Position numbers and translations under genes: made by a program. DNA of 64,000 nucleotides from Ulota crispa (taxonomy: Eukaryota > Streptophyta > Bryopsida > Orthotrichales > Orthotrichaceae): assembly GCA_963920765.1 (NCBI GenBank), contig OY987248.1:14418539-14482538 (forward strand), given 5' to 3'. Of this stretch, positions 4,301 to 57,760 are shown one piece after another (positions within the stretch are counted from its first letter, which is position 1; every line of letters begins with the position of its first letter). Below the pieces are notes generated by a model. The model searched no databases and was not told the DNA's origin. It was given only the letters and a program-made list of their open reading frames with translations.

Positions 4301-5706
4301 TAAGTTCTCCTGGTTCTCCCTTTCTTGCCTGCAACCACATAATCAAACACCCCGAGCTCGAAGTTACATTACAACAGAGAAGGAAAAACAGAACGGCTCA
4401 TGAAAGTGCAATAATCAAGCAGGAAAATGAATGACACCGATCAGCAAGCTATGCTTTGGCACCAGCAGGAAGCTGCAAGTTCGAAAGAGATATATCTCAC
4501 TTTAAGAACATGGAAGCCTCAGCACGAAATATTCCAAACTGCTCCAGTATCAATTAGCGAAGATGTTACACGACGTCCACTGCGATGAGCGAAGAGGAAG
4601 AGAGACGATGATATTACCCTAAGTTGGAAGAAAAATGCTTCCCAATGTACTTTCAGAATCTACGATTCAGAATCAAAGTCATCAACGGACTTGGTTTCAT
4701 ATACAAGAACCGCGTATTCACAGATCTCACTGATAGTTCTGTGCACACAGCCTCAAACAGGATCAAGAGTCTTTCATGAACATTGACAGAGTATTAAAAA
4801 CCATCTGCTACTCTGAGGAGTGAGGACGTGAGGGAGAAACAAGGAGGACATCAATAAGTAAGTCATCATGCATGCAATTAGGAATGCAGGATTGCAGAAA
4901 TAAAACCTGTCAAGTTGAGATTCCTGATGTTCCAATTTTTTGTGAAGCTGCAATATAACTCGGTCTTTTGCCTGGAGAGCCTCCTCCCAATTGTGCCGCG
5001 CATCGGCTGCGCGATTGAGGACGTTGAGATGCTGCTCCCGAAGCTCCACAAGCTGCAGCTCTTTCTCACTCAAAGCCGCCCTTAAGTTTAATAACTGATG
5101 TCCAAGTGATTCGCGCTCACCACGACTATGACTCTTGACGAACTCTGGTGACATTTTAGCGATACCAGGGGTTGGCAAAAACTGTGGTAGCGTCTTGAAG
5201 TCCGGTGGCGTCCTCAGATCTGGAGGCGTCTTCAAATCTGGTGGCGTCTTCAACTTTGGAACCGCCTTTAACTCGGATTGCTGTCTGAGAAAATCTTGAG
5301 GCAATTTGGTGAACCTTGCCGGACAGCCATATCCACAGCCACTGCTGCCCGAGCTGTCCTCATCAACGGCAACTCCATTCCTGATGCCGGAATTCAGATC
5401 GTGCACATTTTTATTATACATACTTCGGCCACCATTTCGAAAATGGACTTTCCGTTGCTCCTGATCCTCTTCCTTCTCAGGATCTTTTAGTTTCACATTA
5501 CCTCCATTTTGAGGAGGCAGTCTTCGATATAAACGATCGCCATTGATCGGTTCAGCGCTATGCGCTGCCTGGGAACGTGCCCTGCGTAAGAATTCCACAT
5601 CGTACCCTCGATTGGCACCAGAGTATGAGCCAACCAGCTCAACGATACCGCTATCGGGGATGTTGCTGAAGAGCTTGCAGTAAACCTCACCATTGGAGGT
5701 AAACAT
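1314..5706 (-). CDS. Ten-exon coiled-coil protein, 553 aa, family not recognised
   Basis: Exons on the minus strand: 5706-4907, 4328-4274, 3818-3663, 3353-3294, 3070-2955, 2708-2636, 2522-2427, 2165-2112, 1780-1644, 1428-1314. All junctions are GT-AG and phases agree throughout, giving 553 aa that end in ...EYSDGRM. Residues 1-195 are low complexity and Gly/Pro/charged, with four TPPDL-like pentads at about 153-175 (KTPPDLKTPPDLRTPPDFKT). From about residue 198 to the end it is nearly continuous Glu/Lys/Gln/Leu-rich coiled coil, for example QERENQENLFALRKRQEE. No enzymatic motif or membrane segment is seen. A structural, cytoskeletal or centrosome/basal-body scaffold role is possible, but that is a guess from the shape alone. 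The start is the first ATG of the large first exon. Exon 6 could end at 2666 instead without changing phase. A decayed inverted copy of the promoter and exon 1 lies at 20764-22525. Confidence 0.75.
4071..4095 (+). repeat. 25-bp G homopolymer
   Basis: An uninterrupted run of 25 G (C on the gene strand) inside the intron between exons 2 and 3 of the coiled-coil gene. Its exact length may be a sequencing or assembly estimate. Confidence 0.85.
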
Positions 5707-6120
5707 GAGCAGCAGGAAGACGTCAACCTCTGATCAACTCGCACGTCACGATTGAGGTCTCATTTGCGCCTTATTATTAGCCTTGCACTTCCAAGCCAGT
5801 ATCTCCGATCTTACAACACCGTAATCACAAGCCATATCACAAATCCAATGCAACTTATTCAAATGTTCAAATCGCCAACACCTCGGCATGAAAGCTCCAA
5901 GACTTTCAATCAAGCTCCATTTTTCGTTCATTCGCATACATAACTTAACACCTCATTTCACACTCTACAAAGTATGTCAAATCAGTTCAATCTTTCAGAA
6001 TCCAATCATACACAAACGTAAACTAGCCCTAAACCCTCGGCAACGGTGTCTTTCTCGTCTTTCAAATGCGATCGAAAACTTGCTGCAACTTATTAAAGAA
6101 AGCTGAAAACGAAATAAAAT
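5707..6120 (-). promoter_or_regulatory. Upstream region of the coiled-coil gene (also present in the decayed copy)
   Basis: The 400 bp upstream of the ATG at 5706 are partly retained, in inverted orientation, at 20764-21110 and 21930-21995. Shared words include GAGTTGATCAGAGGTT next to the start codon and AGCTTTCTTTAATA at the far end. Promoter elements themselves are not defined; a 5' UTR and promoter role is inferred from position. Confidence 0.4.
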
Positions 6121-8683: not shown

Positions 8684-10779
8684 TTGCATGTTCAAGGTAG
8701 AGACGTTGCCAACTTGGCAGCGCTTGAGGCTACTGAGGATTGGATCGTCACTCACGTTTGGGTCTTGCAGCCTCTTTTTGGACTAAGTCCAGCAACGGGA
8801 TTAACAAATATGTTGTTGGGAGAAGTAATTAGAGAGTTCCAGAACGTCGTAACTGGAACAACCATGTGCAAGGTTGATTTTGGTGGGGGTATCGAAATGC
8901 AAGCTATCAAAAAGGATGACTACCAGTTGGCTACAGAAGAAGACATTTTTGCCGTTACTAGTCGTGTATTTGAGGGCAACAACACAACAAGCCAAGAACC
9001 CACCCAAGAAAGCACCTACACTCTAGACCTGCCAACTTATTTGGAGGCAACAGGGGGAGACAACACTGACAACGGGGAAGACCCAGACTGAGAAGCAGAT
9101 TTTGTAGACTAGCGAGGCAATTCTGACTTAGGTAATTTTGACTAGGAGGGCTCTGATTTTGGTAGTGAACCCAAGGTAGTGGAGAATACGATACTTTTGC
9201 AAGAAGATATAGATTTTGATATGTTGGAGTTTGAGCACCGTTATGCTCCTCAGCACTGGGAAGACATATCGGGGACCCTTCTGTCCAGTCAATTTCCGTT
9301 TGTAGGACAGCCCGCAAGGCCCGCACATCGCCACAATTGGCATCCCTTAGGCGTCCATGCATTCTTCGAACCCTATTGGCCAACTGATACAATGATGAAA
9401 GTTTGTACTGAAACTAATCGATAAGCATGCCAACCTAGCTATGCAGATGCCACAAAAACTAGCGGTGGTGTGACCTGGTACGATGTGTCACCAAAGGAGA
9501 TCAGATGCTGGTTTGGAATTTGCATTCTCATGGGTCTCAAAAAGCTTCCCAATATCTAGCTCTATTGGGATCACAAAAACTTCTTTGGCTGCCCACTTGT
9601 GAGAACAGCCATGCATAGAGCATGCTTTGAGAGTCTCTATAGAAATATCCATTTAGTAGACAACTCCTTCCTCATCACAGATAAGAAAATGTTGATTACA
9701 ATAAAATTGCTAAAGTGCGTTGGTTATTGGAGGGATTCATTCTGGTTTCTAAGAGGCTCTACAATTGTGAGCTCTGCGTTTGTGTTGATGAAATCATGAT
9801 ACCATATCATGGAAGGCGCTGTAATATAAAACAATACATGAAGAATAAGCTAGTCCAGTATGGGATTAAAGTATGGTGCTATGCTAATTCCAAGTCCAAA
9901 TATGTGTATGACCTCCAAGTCTATGCTGGACGTAAAGGTGCAAAGTCCAAAAAGGATCTAGGTCTAAAAGTTGTTATAGCGCTTGTGTCTGATTTGAAAG
10001 GTTTAGGTCATGTCGTAGTGATGGACCATTTTTTCTATTCACCTCGCTTGTTTCTTGAGTTGCTACAGCAGGGTTTCCTTGCAACAAGGATGGTTATGCC
10101 AAAAAGGCTCGGCATGCCACTAGCCCTTGTAGCTTACTCACAAACTCATGGTGAATGTGGGGGACTAATTGTGAAGATGCACATGCCTCGCCAAATGGCA
10201 GCAATAGTTTGGTTTGACGCCATTCCGGTTTACCTTCTCAGTACTTCAGTGGATCCCATGGGGCAAGGATCACTGTGCCAAAGGTGGGTTAGTGGTAAAG
10301 GTTGCCAGGAATATCCCACATCACCCATACTCCTAGAGTATCAAGAAATGATGCAAGAGGTCAATCTGGTTGATCAATGCTGCATGGAATACTTGGCCCA
10401 ACTTAGATCGCATAAATGGTGGCACAGACTCCTCCTATTCATACTAGATACTAGTTTGGACAATGCATATGTTCTTTACAAGGACCATGCAATTTGCTCC
10501 CATGAGCGGGTGATGACTAAAGTAGCATTCCATTATCAGATTTCCGCTTGGTTGTACCAACCTCAAGTGCGTCCAGGCCGCATTGCAGCCTCTTTCTCCT
10601 GACTTGATCACGGTATCCATTACTCGGCTAGACATGTGAAGTTGCGGCGTGAGTGCATTATCTGTGGGCATAAGCAAATCCGGTATTGTCCTGGTTGCGC
10701 TAGCAAGTATATGTGTGAAGGTTCTTGCTTCATCAAAGTACACACTATCTCTAAGTACGCAGCGAAGGTATTGAGGTGA
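8684..10779 (+). pseudogene. piggyBac-family transposase relic (DDE_Tnp_1_7 type)
   Basis: Three stretches align by eye with the piggyBac transposase order. An acidic N-terminal part (8684-9180) is followed by the pre-catalytic part (9179-9715: PYWPTDTMMKVCTETNR, then WFGICILMGLKKLPNI), then the catalytic core and C-terminal part (9715-10779). The core shows VDEIMIPYHGR, VVMDHFFYSPRLFLELL, VWFDAIPVYLLST and VNLVDQCCMEY, which supply the catalytic Asp positions. Late residues form a Cys-rich domain (ECIICGHKQIRYCPGCASKY) like the zinc-binding tail that binds piggyBac ends. It is inactive as read: stops interrupt the frame at about 9089, 9110, 9144, 9422, 9558 and 10600, and the frame changes near 9715-9740. 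As a plain cut-and-paste DNA transposase it would move DNA in the nucleus. Confidence 0.85.
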
Positions 10780-20763: not shown

Positions 20764-22525
20764 ATTTTTAGCTTTCTTTAATACAACAAGTTTTTGGTCG
20801 CACTTGAGGGACAAGGAAGGCATTGTTGCCGAGGGTTTGGGGCTTGTCTTTGCGTATGCTATGTTTGTGTATGATTGGATTTTGAAAGATTGAGCTAATT
20901 TGACATTCTTTGTAGAGTGTGAAGTGAGGTGTTATGTACGCAAATGAACAAAAAATGGAGCTTGATTGAAAGTCTTGGAGCTTTAAGGCCAAGGTGTTGG
21001 TAATTTGAACATTTGAATGCACTAGATTTGTGATAAGGCTTCTAACGACGATGTTGTAAGATCGGAGATACTAGCTTGGAAGTGCAATGCTAGGGTGGAA
21101 GCACTCATAGCCAACAATGCCTCATATCCAATCAATAGGGTGTGTTATTTCTAATCCCATCGAGGATAGGTGCTTTGGAATGCATTCTTTTGTCTTTTTC
21201 AAGGTTGGAACCACTAAAATCATGCCGCGTGTTTCTAAGTGGAGTAGGAGGTAATGAGCAAAAATAGATTGGCTACTATTGGAATTGCATTAGTTTAGCC
21301 CTTAAAAGACCGCTAGGTGGCCGTGGCCTGCCCACAATGTACGTTCAATAGTACTTATTCTATAGCTTCAACAATGTTTTGGTTGATGGGCACCAATAGT
21401 ATTGCTTCTAAAAGTTTCAAAAGTCAATAGTGCATGCCGACCTCATGAAAATTGCAATAAGGGTAGCTTGGAACCTAACACCATGATTTTGAATTTTCTC
21501 ACAATTTGGGTTACCTAAAATATGAGCATATTTGATAAGATGGTTTTTTGCCTTCTATGATGGATCATGTGTTTACGGTCACTTTGGAAATAAAAAACAG
21601 ATGAAAAACAACTTTTTTTTGTTGTACAAATCTTTTTTTTAGGGCCAAAGGACAATAATCGTCCTCATGGGGATTTAGGGGTTAGAGGTTAGCACTAGGT
21701 TCAAAGCACTTTTTGACTCCCAAAATCCACAATAATTTCAGTTTTTGCAGATAAAAAATATGAAAATTTCACAATCCAATATTTCTTACCTTCCTACACG
21801 GGGAAAAAATATTTGTCACCTCAAAGCCTTTGTAGTTTGTTGAAAAAAATATTTGTCACCTCAAAGCCTTTGTAGTTTGTTGAAGAATTGCTTAAGTTAT
21901 TGGGTATGGGTGCTTCCACCTTAATAAGGCCGGCCGACCTCAATCGAGATGTGTGAGTTGATCAGAGGTTATCTTCCTGCTCCTCATGTTTACCAAGTAT
22001 GATTTTTATTTTTAGCACAAGAGGCTAAAAACATTGCTAAAAAGCTGAAATTTCAAATTTAACTCTAAAAAATTTACATTTTTTATCTGCATGAAAGTTT
22101 TGTTAACGATCCTGCGAATTTAGCCAGTTTAAACTTTAAAGTACATTGATGGAGAGGCTTACTGCAAGCTCTTCAGCATCATCCCCGATGAGTGATATCG
22201 TTGAGCTGGTTGGCTCATATTCCAGTGCCAATCGAGGGTACGATGTGGAATTCTTACGCAGGGCACGTTCCCAGGCAGCGCATAGCGCTGAACCGATCAA
22301 TGGCGATCGTTTATATCGAAGACTGCCTCCTCAAAATGGAGGTAATGCGAAACTAAAATATCCTGAGAAGGAAGAGGATCAAGAGCAACGGAAATTCCAG
22401 TTTCGGAATGGCGGCAGAAGTATATAATAATAAAAAAAAACACGACCTGAATTCCGGCATCAGGAATGGAGTTGCCGTTGATGAGGACAGCTCGGGCAGC
22501 AGTGCCTGTGGATATGGCGGTTCAT
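20764..22525 (+). pseudogene. Decayed inverted copy of the promoter and exon 1 of the coiled-coil gene
   Basis: 20764-21110 matches the far upstream region of the gene at 1314-5706 (about 5780-6110, inverted). 21930-21995 matches the bases around its start codon. 22141-22525 matches exon 1, with VELVGSYSSANRGYDVEFL and RRLPPQNGGN readable on the plus strand. Two blocks interrupt it: about 21110-21930 (holding a TTAA/TTAG-ended element) and about 21996-22140. The frame is lost after about 95 codons, and nothing of exons 2-10 was seen. It is a genomic rather than mRNA-derived copy, because promoter DNA is included. Confidence 0.85.
21295..21685. mobile_element. piggyBac-type MITE inside the decayed gene copy
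   Basis: It is bounded by TTAG at both ends, with left end TTAGCCCTTAAAAGACC and right end GGACAATAATCGTCC...TTAGGGGTTAG. The GGAC...GTCC subterminal stem resembles the MITE at 52415-52756. TTAG instead of TTAA may be decay or a variant target. Confidence 0.45.
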
Positions 22526-22990: not shown

Positions 22991-25900
22991 TTATGCAGAT
23001 TTAGTGTCATCTCTGGCCTTCTGGATGTCTGCAAGAGCACTGTCGCGAAGAAGAACGACATCAGTCGCACCTGAGACCATGTGGTATCCGAGCTTCAACA
23101 GCTTTGAGGGAGGATCGTCGCTTGTTGCGAATCCGGCTAGGAACACTCCTGAAGATTTCAAAGTGGTCTCCACTTCCCTGTAAGAAGTAGCCATGCCGAA
23201 ACCTCCCATGTGAGTAAGAAACATCTTGTTAGAGTAGTTACACCAAACGCAAATAGACGGTTCGTATCCTTAGGACGAGCTAGAGCACTAAATACAAATA
23301 ACTATAAATTCTTACCTGAGCAACATTGATGGTCTCTTATCATCAGGCAATCGCAACAAGCCCATGTCAGAACGCAGATCAAGAGGTCCCATTTGAATAC
23401 AATCAACACCATCCACAGCAGCAATTTCAGCTATATTGTCGACCGCTTGCTGAGATTCTAACTGCAAACCATTGCTTACAAGTGTCAACATCCAAACACG
23501 TAAAGAAAACATGGGCAACAACTTCCACTTGTCAACTTGCAATGAATTCACATCCTTTTCCACCATTTAATTTAACTCCTTGATTTTGAACAAGTGAACT
23601 AAATGTGTCTATACCAAAGATTTGAAGTAATATAGTTGCCTACACCAAATAATTAGCAGGAGTTAGCTCATTTGAAAGTGCGGGCGCAGAATAGGTTACT
23701 CAATTTCTAACCAGCTAATGGAACTTAAGACTTCAGTTAGGTAATTTGAGCTACTTAGTTGGTACGCGTACAAGATATAACATCGACGATACCTACACCT
23801 ACCGCACTTGTAAATTCTCTGGTTTTCCATAAAAGTATGGTGCATCAATATCAAAGTTCACCGTGGTTGAAACACTGCAAACCGCCTCTGTCTAGAAACA
23901 AATAGCAGCAGATATAACATCTAAGTTCCTAATAAAATTTGAAGGGGAATTTTAGATTTGAAGCATTTCATGTACCTGGCACATAATGAGAAGATCATCC
24001 TCACACCGGCTCAAATAGGTAGGGTCAAGTCCATATCGAGCAGCTCGAACAATAGGAAAAGCAGCACCCCTTATACCTGCTGGAGGGTAGCGACACGATC
24101 TTACTGCATCCCTAGCAGCACTTGCATCATTGATCATAGGAAACATGATGCCTGCAGGCCCCAGGTCCAAAGCTTTCTTCGCCCAAACAGGATCGTTGAC
24201 AGGGATGCGTATGATGGCCGGCGTTCCAGTAGAAGCCAGAGCCTGAAGGATAGGCACAGCTGCCATAGTATCTCCAGGACCATGTTCCAAATCCACCACC
24301 ACAAAGTCGTACCCCGCCCAACCGAGAATCTCCGCCACAACTGTCGAAAAACTCACAGAAAAGGCTCCGTAGAGCTGTTCGCCTTTGTGGAGCCTCTCTT
24401 TCAGTGTACTACTCTGTCCCTGTACATTATCCAAAGATGATTTCAGTTGCTTGAGCTTTTCTAAGGCAAGCTTCAAACTTCAACAACCGTCTCACCTTCA
24501 TACCCTTGGTAGCAAGCGATGTAAGCATGATTTGGCTAAATGTCCATGGCCATTGACCTTTCAGTGGAAAGAAGGTTGTCCACTCTTGCTTATAATGGTC
24601 CACAATATCCCCGTATAAAATTGCAAAAGAAATTCATCCATGGCTAAATAAAGAGTTTATCTAAACAAATTTGGCTCAAACGTACGCGATGTGATCTGTC
24701 CAAATCTCTATACCGGTATTAATCACCTAAATTCATTCTTCCACGTGTTAGTCAAAATGCTACAAATGATGCAAAACAGCATTTTCTACCTTACCTTCTT
24801 AACATCAAAGCACTCAAGAACAAGAAATAATTATAGTAACATCATCTCCTCTAATATCACATCCTTTCATCTCTAACTGAACCTTACGAAACATGCCTCA
24901 AGCCAAAAACTCAATCTACACTCGTTATACCTCAAAAAGCTACAAACACCAAATAACACTAAATTTACATGCAGCACTGTTTGTCGCAACGTAATAAATT
25001 CGAGAGGAACCTAGGCTGTATTAACGAGGTCTGGAAGTACTGGATCGCTTGCTTTGAATATTAGGGCTGGAGAACAATCCAGGCTTTTCATCAAACAGAA
25101 CACACTCAACGTCCATACTAGTGCACTCCATTTGAGAAACACGTAAGCTCGTCGCAAGGAACATTTTCAAGTACGCAGTACTGGCGAAGGCAGCATCTAA
25201 GAAAGCAGATACGTTTTGATCGAATACGCCTCGGCCTAGTCTATTCCGGCTACAAGTCTTGCAATACAATAATCGCTACTAGGAATCAGATGGAAACAGA
25301 TACAATTGCTGAGGTAACTAAACGATTTACTAAGGCTTTGAACATAAGCTCGTCGCAAGAAACATTTTCATGAACGCAGTACTGGCGAAGGTGCTGTAGC
25401 ATCTAAGAAAGCAGATACGTTTTGATCGCATACGTCTCGTCCTAGTCTATTCCGGCTACTAATCGTGCAGCACAATAATCGCCATTCGAAATCAAATGGA
25501 AACAGATACAATTGCTGAGGTACCTAAACGATTTACCGAGGCTTTGGACATAATCTTGTTGCGAGAAGCATTCATTGCTGAGGTAACTAAACGATTTACC
25601 AAGGCTTTGAACATAACCTCGTTGCGAGAAGCATTCGGCTACTAATCGTGCAGCACAATAATCGTCATTACAAATCAAATGGAAACAGATACAATTGCTG
25701 AGGTACCTAAACGATTTACCAAGGCTTTAGACATAATCCAGTTGCGAGAAGCATTTTCACGAACGCAGTACTGGCGGAGGCAGCACCTAAGAAAGCAGAT
25801 ACGTTTTGATCGCATACTTCTCGGCCTAGTCCATCCCGGCTACTAAACTTGCAGTATAATAATCGCCATTACAAATCAAATAGAAACGGACACAATTGCT

Positions 25901-26606
25901 GAGGTAACTAACGATTTCCCAAGGCATTGGACATAATCTCGTTACGAGAAGCATTCGGCTACTAAACTTGCAGCACAATAATCGTCATTACAAATCAAAT
26001 GGAAACAGATACAATTGCTGAGGTAACTAAACGATTTACCAAGGCTTTGAACATAATCTCGTTGCGAGAAGCATTTTAAAATACGAGGCAGCACTTAAGC
26101 AAGCAGATACGTTTTGATCGCATACGTCTCGCCCTAGTCTATTCCGGCTACTAATCTTGCAGCACAATAATCGTCATTACGGAAATAGATGCAATTGACG
26201 ATTTACCGAGGTTTTGGACATAATCTCGTTGCGAGAAGCATATTCAAGTACGCAGCGATCGCATACGTCTCGCCCTAGTCTATTCCGGCTACTAATCGTG
26301 CAGCACAACAATCGTCATTACAAATCAAATGGAAACAGATACAATTGACGATTTTACCGATGCTTTGGTGGCCATAGTCGCCGATGCTGCTGCTGCTGAT
26401 GCAAGAACAGGGCGTCTCCTTGACTGCTTCGTCCACGAGCAATTGGAGCTGCCACTCCAAGGTCGAGTTGAGCTAGTGTGAGTGCGACGGGGGAACGATC
26501 GCAGAGACGAGGAAGGGAGAGAAAGCAAGGCTGCAGAGGGCGGGGTAGACGAGGAGGAAAGCAGTCGAAGCGCATCTGCGGTAGCCGTGCGCATGGCTGC
26601 CCACAT
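22991..26606 (-). CDS. HpcH/HpaI-family class II aldolase with organelle-type presequence, 358 aa
   Basis: Exons: 26606-26358, 24470-23976, 23461-23316, 23177-22991. All introns are GT-AG and phases agree. Residues 1-83 are Ser/Ala/Arg-rich with no acidic start, a typical plastid or mitochondrial targeting peptide. The catalytic barrel shows VVVDLEHGPGD (active-site His), AIIRIPVNDP (Arg), GIMFPMI, CQLESQQAV (metal-binding Glu), MGPLDLRSDMG (metal-binding Asp) and LGYHMVSGATD near the end. The family performs Mg2+/Mn2+-dependent retro-aldol cleavage of 4-hydroxy-2-oxo acids, or related C-C cleavage giving pyruvate; the plant substrate is uncertain. Total length agrees with plant relatives. 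The join of exon 1 to exon 2 rests on phase and composition only. Intron 1 (about 1.9 kb) is largely a tandem array built from the exon 1 donor region. Confidence 0.88.
25130..26357 (-). repeat. Tandem array of the aldolase splice-donor region in intron 1
   Basis: About eight units, in a long form near 200 bp and a short form near 110 bp. On the gene strand each has CAAAGCCTTG|GTAAATCG or a variant, then CAATTGTATCTGTTTCC and ATTATTGTGCTGCA. The first unit is the genuine exon 1 donor (AAAGCATCG|GTAAAATCG at 26358). Seven decayed copies sit further into the intron near 26205, 26030, 25910, 25710, 25590, 25530 and 25320; all but the one near 25910 keep the GT. Confidence 0.8.
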
Positions 26607-29350: not shown

Positions 29351-30013
29351 CCAACATTTAACCCCTAAACACCAAAATGATCCTCACATGATTTCACATG
29401 CCGTTTAAGGTATTGGATTTAATTTTTTGGCCTTAGTATAAACTACAATTATCAAGGTACTCAAGTGGTCCATGCAAGTGGAGTAATGGCAAGGCAAGCC
29501 AAGCCATATGTGATACAAGTGCCTCAAGAGTCTTAATTGTGTGAAACACCATATATTAGGCGTGGTGGCAAGCAATGTCTTACAAGCTACAGTTGATCAA
29601 TACTCATTGCAAGCTTCCTTGTATGTGTTTTGTCTGTGGTAGTGGGAAATTTGCCAACAAGGTACCAAAATTGGTATTTTACCATCACATGTTGTTTGAT
29701 CAAATGTTATAATCTCCCATCTCCCATGGTCCATTGTTTTCAAAATTTGCAAACCATTTTCTAAATAGGTGTTCTACTATTTTCAATGGTCCTTTTTGTG
29801 GATCATCCAATTGACTGAGATACAATGCATTTAGGTCTCCTTTCAATAACGCCACATGTGATTATGTGATTATGTATTAGTAAAGTCTAACTTTTGGTGA
29901 ATATCGAGAGTGGGTTTGATTGAATGTTCCAACATGCAAAAGTTTGCAATGAACTCAAAATGCATTTGAGGATGTAAAAAAAGTTACATTGATTTCGAAG
30001 TGCAAGACTATCC

Positions 30014-30094
30014 GTCAGCTGCAGGATTTGAACCTGCGCGGGGAAACCCCAGTAGATTTCGAGTCTACCGCCTTAACCACTCGGCCAAACTGAC
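30014..30094 (-). tRNA. tRNA-Ser (anticodon CGA)
   Basis: 81 nt with acceptor stem GTCAGTT/AGCTGAC, D-arm GCCGAGTGGTTAAGGC, anticodon loop CTCGAAA (CGA), an extended class II variable arm (TGGGGTTTCCCC) and T-arm GCAGGTTCAAATCCTGC. There is no intron and no encoded CCA. The A and B box promoters are intact. It decodes UCG. Confidence 0.95.
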
Positions 30095-30104
30095 AATCGG
30101 CACC

Positions 30105-30176
30105 GACCATGCTGGGGATCGAACCCAGAATCTCTAGCTCCGTAGGCTAGCGCCTTATCCATTGGGCCACACGGTC
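30105..30176 (-). tRNA. tRNA-Arg (anticodon ACG)
   Basis: 72 nt with acceptor stem GACCGTG/CATGGTC, D-arm GCCCAATGGATAAGGC, anticodon stem CTAGC/GCTAG with loop CTACGGA (ACG, read as ICG after editing) and T-arm CTGGGTTCGATCCCCAG. It is only 10 bp upstream of the tRNA-Ser on the same strand. Confidence 0.95.
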
Positions 30177-48000: not shown

Positions 48001-49725
48001 CAACACCAACCCGCCTCATCCACTCTTTAAACATGTTTTCAATTGATGTTCATCAAATTGGTACGATTAACATAAAACATTGCATTCTCTCAAGAGGAGT
48101 TCTCCTCAACCCTAAATAATAGATTTGTAGAGCCTTCAATAGATGATCAAATATCCAATAAGACAAAATTCCACGATCATGACTAAAACATCAAAATATG
48201 ACGAACAAAGCATAGGTGAATAGTCGTACCTCTAGCAAAGTGCAAAGCAATGGAGCTCTGTACGATACGATGTCAGACGCATCCTCGTCAGATGAATAAA
48301 CTTTGGTGGGGAGTAAGCAAGGTTCCTTAGGTGAACAAAGCTTCTGCAAAAGGTTATCCAGGCCTACTCCCATGGAATTTCGCAAACCAGTGTCAAAAAG
48401 CTCAATCAAAGGCAGCAACCTAATGCAGCAACGTAAAGTGAGAGCAGTCACTTTAAGTCCTTGAAGAGTCGAGGGGAAGGCACCGTGGTTTTCAGCAAGC
48501 TTCTCATTTCCAGCAGAAAAAAAGGGAATACAACGAGCAAGCTCCAGAAAAAGGACGTCATGCAAGGCCACCAGATCATCGTAGTTGATATAGACCTCTT
48601 TATCCCCCACGACGGCAGGCAAGGAAGCATGGTCTGTTGATGTAGGCGATGGATACTTGAACGAGGCCGCAGATGAAGAAAGAAAATAACAGAGGTGCTT
48701 AAGAACATCCGCCTTGAACTCCTGTGGTAAGCCAGACACATTTGCAAAACCAAGTGCATTCAGTAAGCGTCATTTTAAGGTATGTACACCCATAAGCGTC
48801 AAACTAAGGGTTTTGAACATGATGAGTATAGCAAATTATAGGATCCTATTAGGAACAGAAAAACAATGAGTTTGCACTTTTGAATGTATTATTTGGATAA
48901 TAAGTTGTGAATTTTTGAAGAGAAAAATGCCATTGCACCCATAAACACTATTAAGATTTCATGTTCAAATATTGTACATCCTTTTCATTACATCTATTCA
49001 CTTCCACAGATTTTCCAAAATTTCAGAGGTCACGGTTATGGGGACAGTGGTGCTTAAGGGAGTACATATCGATCACAGGTGCAGCTTCAACATTAACCTC
49101 CAAAACATTAACATCCAGGACATAAAACACAAGCTTTCCTGATAATCTAAGGAGAAACCTAACCTGGCTTAATCTCAAATATGCATAAACACGATTTTTT
49201 TCTCTCAGAAAGGAACTTTTCAAATAAAGCCCTTCAATACTCCGATGACCTTTTTAGCTTCCGAGAACATGCTAGTTTCTTGCCACTAACAATCAATATC
49301 GTTATAAACAACATTAACATCCAGGACATAAAACACAAGCTTTCCTGATAATCTAAGAACAAGCCTAACCTGGCTTAATCTCTAACATGCATAAACACGA
49401 CTTTTTTCTCTCCGAAAGGAACTTTTCAAATAAAGCCTTTCCATTCTCCGATGATCTTTTTAGATTCCGAGAACATGCTAATTTTTCTGCCACTAACAAT
49501 CAATATCGATATAAACAAGATGAGCAATAGGATTTTGTGTCCATTACGACCACGTACCGATTCCGCAACACGTAAAACGTCGACGAATTTCCTTAAAGAG
49601 GTGAAATCCTCAAACGACGAGACACGAACTCCAACTCCAACTCCTGGCACCTTCGTTTTAACGCCTTGTATCCACGGCTCCGTATGAGGATGCAATGTCC
49701 GAACCCCGCCATCATCCATTCCCAT
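45035..49725 (-). CDS. Unrecognised six-exon 927-aa protein, probably nuclear
   Basis: Exons: 49725-49558, 48721-48230, 47938-46577, 46174-45999, 45808-45542, 45353-45035, all GT-AG and in phase. Residues 1-56 come from exon 1. About 57-675 are a Leu/Cys-rich, mostly helical region without obvious repeats, of the sort seen in HEAT/ARM-like scaffolds. About 735-820 are acidic/Gln-rich and look disordered. The last 105 aa are strongly basic, with DLNDFIVCKQGRSYTRWLNR followed by an Arg/Lys-rich stretch that could be a nuclear signal or nucleic-acid-binding tail. No enzyme motif or membrane segment was seen. A chromatin, DNA-repair or cell-cycle scaffold is a guess only. The exon 1 to exon 2 join is the weakest, because a MITE lies in that intron 55 bp from the acceptor. 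Confidence 0.75.
45361..45480. repeat. Three ~39-bp tandem repeats beside the last exon of the 927-aa gene
   Basis: Units of AGCAC(A/G)TGGAAGTGGATTAA then CAAACTTCAAAGATC. They lie in the last intron, starting 8 bp before the 3' splice site of exon 45353-45035, so the branch-point/polypyrimidine region is repeated. Confidence 0.85.
48778..49068 (+). mobile_element. AGGT...ACACCCATAAGC MITE in intron 1 of the 927-aa gene
   Basis: Left end TA-AGGTATGTACACCCATAAGC; the right end is decayed (GGTGCTTAAGGGAGTACATA). The interior matches the complete copy at 58400-58718. The element ends 55 bp from the exon 2 acceptor. Confidence 0.8.
49105..49515. repeat. Direct tandem duplication, two ~206-bp units
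   Basis: 49105-49310 and 49311-49515 share ACATTAACATCCAGGACATA at their starts, TTTCCTGATAATCTAAG and CACTAACAATCAATATCG at their ends. It lies in intron 1 of the 927-aa gene, close to the exon 1 donor. Confidence 0.9.
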
Positions 49726-55984: not shown

Positions 55985-57760
55985 ATTGCACAAAAAAATG
56001 GTAACCCGATTGCATCTTGCCCACTTGAGGCCTACTGTGATTTCGTAGAGCACAAAGTTTTAGAGTTTTGACCTAACCCTAAAATAGCAAGAAAGGAGCA
56101 GTACCTGCAGGCATTCTAAGCTTTCTCCCTCCTGAGCTTTCCGAGTTGCACAAAAAAAATACTACTTCTGTCCCTCTAAAAACGTCCAAATCAGACATAT
56201 TTCTTGTACCACTAAAAAGCTCCCTTTTGTTGATTTCAAACGCTGAGAAAGCGTTTGTCATGTTCAATGATCTCACAAGGGCAAGAGAGCATTCCTCTCA
56301 TAGCAAGCTTGGCCTAATTGCCCATATGAGGTACCTTGTTACTACTAATCTTTCAATCATCAATGATGAGGAGCTGGCAGCATGCACAAATATGGTACTT
56401 TTTACATGGAATTTGGGTGCCCAAATGGCAACATAAAAGCTGGAGATTTTGCATACGTTTGGTAGATGGTATTATTGATTCTAGAATGCATGTGTCATTA
56501 GCACAAAGATTATAAACACAGTTCATCCTTCGCAAGGAAGCTTTTTGGACGTTTCAGGGAGACAGAGGGAGTATTAGACAAGTCACCTTAGATCTACAAC
56601 AGATGTTAACACAAGCTCTGTAGCAGTAATGGTTATGGATTATAAGCATTACGCTATCAAGTGATCAGAATACTGAACGGCAGTGTCAATTTCTCTCAAA
56701 AAATAGCACAACAAAAAAGACTCGACTGCATCCTGTCCACTTGCCACCTGTTGTGATTTCCTAGAGCACAAAGCTTTAGAATTTTGACCTAACATTAAAA
56801 TAGTAAGAGAGATGCAGTACCTGCAAGCATTCTAAAAATTTCTCCCTCCGAAGCTTTCCGAGTTGCACACATAAAGAAATATTCGACTACATCTTGCCCA
56901 CTTGCGACCTATTGTGATTTCCTAGAGCACAAAGCTTTCGAGTTTTGACCTAACCCTAAAATAGTAAGAAAGTAGCAGTACCTGCAGGCATTCTAAGCCT
57001 TCTCTCTCCCGAGCTTTCCGAGTTGCACAAAAATATATATTCGACTGCATCTTGTCCACTTGCGACCTACTGTAATTTCCTAGAGCACAAAGCTATAGAG
57101 CTTTGACCTACCCTTTAATAGCAAGAAATTCTAAGCCTCCTCTCTCCTGAGCTTTCCGACTTGCACAAAAAATAAATATTCGACTGCATCTTGTCCACTT
57201 GCGACCTATTGTGATTTTCTAAAGCACAAAGCTTTAGAGCTTTGACCTAACCCTAAAATATCAATAAATCTACGCTTTCTCCCTTCTGAGCTTTCCGAGT
57301 TGCACAAAAAATAAAAATTCGACTTCGTCTTGTCCACTTGCGACCTGTTGTGATTTCCTACAGCACAAAAGCTTAAGAGTTTTGACCTAACCCTAAAATA
57401 GTAAGAAAGGAGCAGCAGGCATTCTAAGCTTTCTCCTTCATGAGCTTTTCCGAGTTGCACAATAAAATAAAAAAACGCCTGCATCTTATCCACTTGTAGC
57501 CTATTGTGATTTCCTAGAGCACAAAGCTTTACACTTTTGACCTAAACCTAAAATAGCAAGAAATTCTAAGCTTTCTCCTTCTTGAGCTTTCCGAGTTGCA
57601 CAAAAAAAAAAATGTATTAGACTGCATCTTGTCTACTTGCCACCTATTGTGCTTTCCCAGAGCACAAGGCCTTAGTGTTTTGACCTAACCCTAAAATAGC
57701 AAGAAAGCAGCAGTACCTGCAGGCATTCTAAGCTTTTTCCCGCCTGAGCTTTCCGAGTTC
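55985..57760 (-). repeat. Tandem array of the eL14 gene's last codons and 3' flank
   Basis: About eight units of 130-150 bp. On the gene strand each carries AACTCGGAAAGCTC then GGAGAAAGCTTAGAAT, the codons for ..LGKLRREKA and stop, followed by GCCTGCAGGTACTGC, TTAGGGTTAGGTCAAAA and GCTCTAGGAAATCACAATAG. Unit ends fall at about 56150, 56870, 57030, 57165, 57305, 57460, 57605 and the gene itself at 57760. One unit was split off by the MITE at 56162-56571. The copies lack the rest of the ORF. Confidence 0.85.
56162..56571 (-). mobile_element. Stowaway/mariner-type MITE inserted into the eL14 3' array
   Basis: Ends CTACTTCTGTCCCTC and GGGAGACAGAGGGAG with TA at each side (56160-56161, 56572-56573). 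It is an inverted relative of 53655-54244, shorter. It separates two copies of an about 295-bp duplicated block, so it postdates or accompanied that duplication. Confidence 0.8.

Follow-up and report, generated by a model that had tools for sequence, protein, structure and literature searches.

The first intron of an aldolase gene contains a tandem array of eight units that begins inside exon 1 and repeats the exon edge together with its presumed 5′ splice junction. The array lies in a 64-kb window, the whole stretch of DNA that was analysed. By its gene content the window may come from a plant, perhaps a liverwort. The array probably arose when a segment starting just within exon 1 was duplicated locally in tandem, and the copied junctions would then be passengers that leave the mRNA unaltered.

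Aldolase gene model

The aldolase gene is located on the minus strand, and its exon 2 matched the HpcH/HpaI aldolase family (Pfam PF03328, E 3e-20). A search of the genome (275 Mb in 157 contigs) with the PF03328 profile matched this gene alone, as two exon matches, a count that is a lower bound. The exons and the presumed donor are as follows.

26358..26606 (-), exon 1, coding part; 249 nt, 83 codons, ending in phase 0, supported by an open frame that continues in frame into exon 2
26357..26358 (-), presumed genuine 5′ splice junction, TCG|GTAAAA; donor matrix score 0.11
23976..24470 (-), exon 2, HpcH/HpaI aldolase domain; acceptor 24470 (GAAG|CTTGCC) or 24419 (ACAG|GGACAG)
24496..24528 (-), possible alternative first exon, ATG...AAG|GTGAGA; donor matrix score 5.15, in frame with 24419

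The exon 1 product is N-terminal, rich in Ser, Arg and Ala, and ends with the residues MATKAS; judged by eye, it may be a transit-peptide-like N-terminus, and no Pfam match to exon 1 was found. The presumed donor has 26358 as its final exon base, in the context TCG|GTAAAATC. Both acceptors, 24470 and 24419, are in frame with exon 1 and have an equal score of 0.6 on an acceptor matrix built from 20 introns, with references scored leave-one-out; five of the 20 references scored lower, and six of 129 AGs between 26340 and 24381 scored higher. The gene model thus appears frame-coherent, yet its donor and both acceptors look weak by score, and neither the dominance of 26358 nor the intron 1 model seems assured. 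Donor 26358 may be weak by sequence, may be helped by its context, or may be one of several first-exon ends in use. The stretch 24528-24496 encodes MLTSLATKGMK and is separated from acceptor 24419 by a 76-nt intron; with its strong donor and this short intron, it could be a better candidate for a short form than the array copies.

Downstream of the aldolase gene, a piece of DNA is duplicated about 16 kb away (22140-22427 and 4774-5733); the two places lie on opposite strands and share the translated stretch IVELVGSYS.ANRGYDVEFLRRARSQAAHSAEPINGDRLYRRLPPQNGGN. Elsewhere in the window, an open frame at 9685-10602 (+) matched the DDE_Tnp_1_7 transposase family (E 3e-36), which we take to be a PiggyBac-like element, and two adjoining tRNA genes were found at 30013-30176 (-).

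Array structure and junction copies

The array and its junction copies, scored with the donor matrix, are listed below.

25141..26368 (-), tandem array of eight units, the exon-bearing one among them, and a partial end; 11 nt in exon 1, remainder in intron 1
26206..26207 (-), junction copy 1, TCG|GTAAAT; score 1.80
26039..26040 (-), junction copy 2, TTG|GTAAAT; score 1.18
25919..25920 (-), junction copy 3, TTG|GGAAAT; GT lost, dead as a donor
25719..25720 (-), junction copy 4, TTG|GTAAAT; score 1.18
25599..25600 (-), junction copy 5, TTG|GTAAAT, in a shortened unit of 63 nt; score 1.18
25536..25537 (-), junction copy 6, TCG|GTAAAT; score 1.80
25330..25331 (-), junction copy 7, TTA|GTAAAT; score -2.26

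Tandem Repeats Finder placed the array at 25144-25942, and self-comparison widened it to 25141-26368. An earlier note on this DNA had given its span as 25130..26358; the array itself was confirmed, and the upper end of that span was slightly short, since self-comparison reaches 26368. The units stand head to tail and measure 63-206 nt from junction to junction. The copies are 82-94% identical among themselves and 69-78% identical to the exon-bearing unit, except for the short unit U5, which shows 45% identity to it over 51 aligned columns. Internal deletions are common to several units.

Seven junction copies follow 26358, with their last "exon" bases at 26207, 26040, 25920, 25720, 25600, 25537 and 25331. 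GT is kept in six of them and reads GG at 25920, which agrees with the earlier count of about seven decayed copies, six with GT. The context CCTTG|GTAAATCG ascribed to the GT copies holds for three of the six, the others reading CCTCG (two) or CCTTA (one).

That the splice junction lies inside the repeated unit was borne out by self-comparison, in which the array covers 11 nt of exon 1, so that the unit holds sequence from both sides of the boundary. A free local alignment of the last 60 nt of exon 1 against the 60 nt before each copy gave no p value below 0.05 for any of the seven copies (best 0.07). Extension anchored at the junction gave an exon-side match of 9-11 nt, and among 1500 random GT sites of the window 3, 13, 9, 16, 6, 0 and 50 matched as well (copies 26207 to 25331, in order). 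Because of this anchored match and the comparison with random GT sites, the junction is placed within the unit: by sequence comparison, the intron part of the repeat is unmistakable, but it includes little of the exon. A little further upstream, both the exon (ATGGCCACC) and the copies (ATGTCC) have an ATG, which suggests that the homology may extend to about 18 nt with a 3-nt gap.

A genome search with the unit found no other place, at the sensitivity of that search and with common words skipped, and a dispersed element was rejected. An assembly artefact would likewise be improbable, as the differences of 6-18% among the copies argue against it.

Donor strength

The donor matrix was built from 22 introns of the same genome and scored leave-one-out, the references ranging from -3.4 to 6.1. 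In six chaperonin genes, 30 neighbouring exon pairs were considered: 15 had a single GT-AG solution (14 used and one dropped for a distant offset), four had several solutions, of which the one with the T-rich acceptor was taken, five had none, and six were skipped for large gaps. The resulting 18 chaperonin introns were joined by aldolase introns 2 and 3 and by the donor-like site that follows the stop codon in each of two RPL14 paralogues. The score leaves out positions +1 and +2, which makes the value of 1.18 printed for the GG copy at 25920 meaningless. Chaperonin and RPL14 genes form inverted pairs whose members score identically (C2:31186942-31195084, C3:11352599-11372209 and C10:13797833-13806038); recent palindromic duplications, or else an effect of the assembly, may account for this.

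The presumed donor scored 0.11, with three of the 22 reference donors lower. Among the GT copies, two scored 1.80, three 1.18 and one -2.26, so that five of six exceeded the presumed donor; among all GT sites in the window, these five rank at the 92nd-94th percentile, and eight of the 22 reference donors lie below 1.18. Pairing energies with the start of the U1 RNA, read from this genome, were -5.5 for 26358, -5.3 to -5.5 for the five better copies and -2.7 for 25331, with references at -3.5 to -12.3. Between 26357 and 24426 there are 139 GT sites (26358 counted), of which 16 score at least as high as 26358: the donor itself, five copies and ten others. Seven of these ten score above all of the copies, led by 24795 (6.31) and 24496 (5.15).

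By these scores, five of the six GT copies would be weak donors but no weaker than the presumed one. The suggestion that the copies are potential donors therefore stands in this respect: they do not score far below background, and five of the six GT copies lie above the presumed donor. Unit by unit, the picture is mixed: five GT copies reached 1.18-1.80, one fell to -2.26, and one unit is without GT.

Consequences of copy use

Read from the ATG at 26606 and on past 26358, the frame runs for 93 codons before it reaches a stop at 26325-26327, upstream of every copy. Since this stop precedes all of them, use of any copy as the exon 1 donor would give the same truncated peptide. The earlier proposal that the copies could change the length of the N-terminal exon does not hold for the coding part, and a longer N-terminal coding exon is excluded by this in-frame stop.

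The ATG 15 nt before the junction is kept in all seven copies, and the six GT copies are in frame with exon 2 at 24419 (e.g. MSKAS...). A transcript start inside the array could yield a short form, and these frames would be relevant in that case alone. Mean pairwise identity in blocks of 15 columns (columns present in at least five copies) was 0.80-0.96, with an overall value of 0.88. The donor block (columns 30-44) ranked second of eight at 0.93, its neighbour on the intron side reached 0.96, a block free of splice signals had 0.92, and the two exon-side blocks had 0.87. The junction, by this measure, seems to show no distinct sign of better conservation than its surroundings. A protein-level role of the copies was rejected, as the ATG stretch falls in blocks (0.87 and 0.93) whose conservation does not stand out from the rest.

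Tandem arrays elsewhere in the window and genome

A second array of the same kind was detected in an RPL14 gene (PF01929, E 3e-28; gene end 57728).

56706..57759 (-), second array of the same kind, seven units; Tandem Repeats Finder and self-comparison

Unit 1 of the RPL14 array contains 43 nt of exon, including the last codons and the stop codon, up to a donor-like CAG|GTACTG (4.03). In the RPL14 paralogues on contigs C6 and C10, a donor-like site follows closely on the stop codon, and a real intron may start at CAG|GTACTG, as inferred from these paralogues. The donor-like site is kept in two of the six copies; in the alignment, deletions of 19-20 nt remove it from three others, and the remaining one lacks CAGGTA. 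The strong RPL14 site is lost in four of six copies and the weak aldolase GT kept in six of seven. Self-comparison of the two RPL14 paralogues on C6 and C10 (1.6 kb each) showed no tandem cluster; a fourth RPL14 place, on C10, was outside this comparison.

In two genes of the window, therefore, an array starts within an exon and duplicates the end of that exon, donor included. Counted by self-comparison regardless of exon overlap, there were 10 tandem clusters in the 64-kb window, 18 in 10 of 20 random loci (200 kb), and none in eight gene regions (24 kb in total). The long-period arrays of random loci L016 and L032 were looked at for open frames only. Within the window, a two-copy tandem repeat with a 206-nt period and 92% matches (49104-49518) was also observed; a gene that weakly matched DUF7812 lies about 1 kb away.

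The earlier description of tandem duplication of a splice site as unusual is weakened, because RPL14 in the same window has an array of the same kind and tandem duplications occur in 10 of 20 random loci; the absence of clusters from the eight gene regions speaks in its favour. Two exon-end arrays in one window, set against zero clusters in these regions, may be more than passive chance. A broader proposal is that arrays starting in an exon, by a few tens of bases or less, and repeating its 5′ junction form a recurrent class here (two genes about 30 kb apart) and tune expression by supplying first introns or UTR introns with surplus weak donors and with enhancement motifs, the losses in RPL14 looking as if strong decoys were purged; we regard this as improbable.

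Alternative explanations

Two alternatives would give the copies a role in splicing. As working donors, they would compete with 26358 and divert transcripts to early-stop forms, lowering or tuning the targeted isoform. This is conceivable for five of the six GT copies, which score 1.18-1.80 against 0.11 and have U1 pairing energies like that of 26358; it nevertheless appears unlikely, as all of them are weak against the 22 references, seven non-copy GT sites in the intron outscore every copy, and the donor block is without distinct conservation. In recursive splicing, the copies would regenerate donors and the intron would be removed stepwise. A recursive splice site has an AG immediately followed by a donor GT. 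The donors are indeed repeated and weak acceptor-like AGs exist in some units, e.g. 25180 (2.8) and 25770 (1.0), but AG directly before GT was found in none of the seven copies and the intron is shorter than 2 kb. We therefore rejected the copies as recursive 5′ splice sites, a role that the earlier note had raised, and regard stepwise removal as extremely improbable.

The array could also multiply a signal for intron-mediated enhancement near the transcription start, since full units can carry TTNGATYTG and CGATT, the latter being an enhancement-associated word. CGATT is present 10 times against 0.72 expected by length, and four of the 10 TTNGATYTG matches of the window lie in the aldolase array, all in sense.

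25671..26329 (-), TTNGATYTG, four sense copies (26329, 25999, 25880, 25679), 277-927 nt from the ATG

In Arabidopsis, mRNA increases as a linear function of the number of TTNGATYTG copies, up to 20 copies or more, and the motif is effective within roughly the first transcribed kb (PMC6760150). The aldolase intron resembles enhancement introns with multiple TTNGATYTG in that the motif recurs in sense close to where the first intron begins; it differs in that its copies are by-products of repeat growth and that the motif, defined in Arabidopsis, is known here from its presence. All four copies descend from one occurrence, the window total shows no excess (10 against 11.0 expected), and 35 of 2552 window stretches of 206 nt hold one in sense. 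In addition, four of the eight units have lost the motif or carry it cut, and columns 75-89, where most of it falls, form the block with the lowest conservation among the eight blocks (0.80). With these points against it, an enhancement role would be quite improbable.

Comparison with known systems

In the potato RdRp gene, as described in PMC4974935, one tandem duplication across the 3′ boundary of an intron led to a new intron; the same source cites the internal gene duplication of Gao and Lynch 2009. The aldolase array is similar in having one breakpoint in the exon and one in the adjoining intron, with spare splice signals (PMC4974935), and differs in that it has multiplied a 5′ boundary into eight units with no sign of a new intron. 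Intron gain by the AGGT model, as outlined in that paper (PMC4974935), was rejected; the model involves a duplicated AGGT, and AG|GT is present in none of the seven copies. In intron 6 of human TERT, an example of intronic minisatellite (VNTR) arrays, 38-bp tandem repeats more than 1 kb from the exon junctions are reported to act through RNA pairing. Both cases are tandem repeats within an intron of a coding gene (PMC3948165); unlike the human repeat as described there, the aldolase junction is part of the unit, and the aldolase array is known from sequence. Among the matches listed in the literature on duplicated donors or Marchantia intron repeats, no donor array was found, most subscription papers being outside this scope.

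Origin of the array

The ordinary explanation would be that a tandem array decaying within an intron has, by chance, an exon edge in its unit, as an example of a known process. Slippage or unequal exchange would have duplicated a segment locally, with the left breakpoint near the end of exon 1, 11 nt or more ahead of the junction, and the right one about 180 nt into intron 1. Later rounds and internal deletions would have produced the eight units, the exon edge and the donor being carried along in each new copy as passengers. Because the original junction stays closest to the exon and still joins exon 2 in frame, the mature mRNA would be unchanged and the intron longer. The copies would be decaying, weak spare donors, and any use of them would give minor transcripts with an early stop. 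We infer these breakpoints and this order of events from the array, and both the neutrality of the copies and the normal use of 26358 are likewise presumptive.

Signs of decay are present in the array, with one donor without GT, one reading TTA|GT and deletions in several units. The structure and divergence of the array, an exon overlap ending 11 nt from the junction and the lack of distinct conservation of the donor block are consistent with local duplication and passenger junctions, as are the absence of another genomic place for the unit at the sensitivity of the search, the stop ahead of every copy, the frequent tandem duplications, and the RPL14 array of the same anatomy with its two array-free paralogues. 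Against this origin may be counted the weakness of the presumed donor and of the in-frame acceptors, the two exon-end arrays in one window set against no cluster in the eight gene regions, and an exon homology that amounts to 11 nt and fails the free local test.

If the array did arise as a passive local duplication, it shows how an intron may be lengthened by copying its own 5′ junction while the mRNA is unchanged. The array would also give a naturally occurring set of almost identical donors that compete within a single gene, which bears on the question of position versus strength in donor choice.
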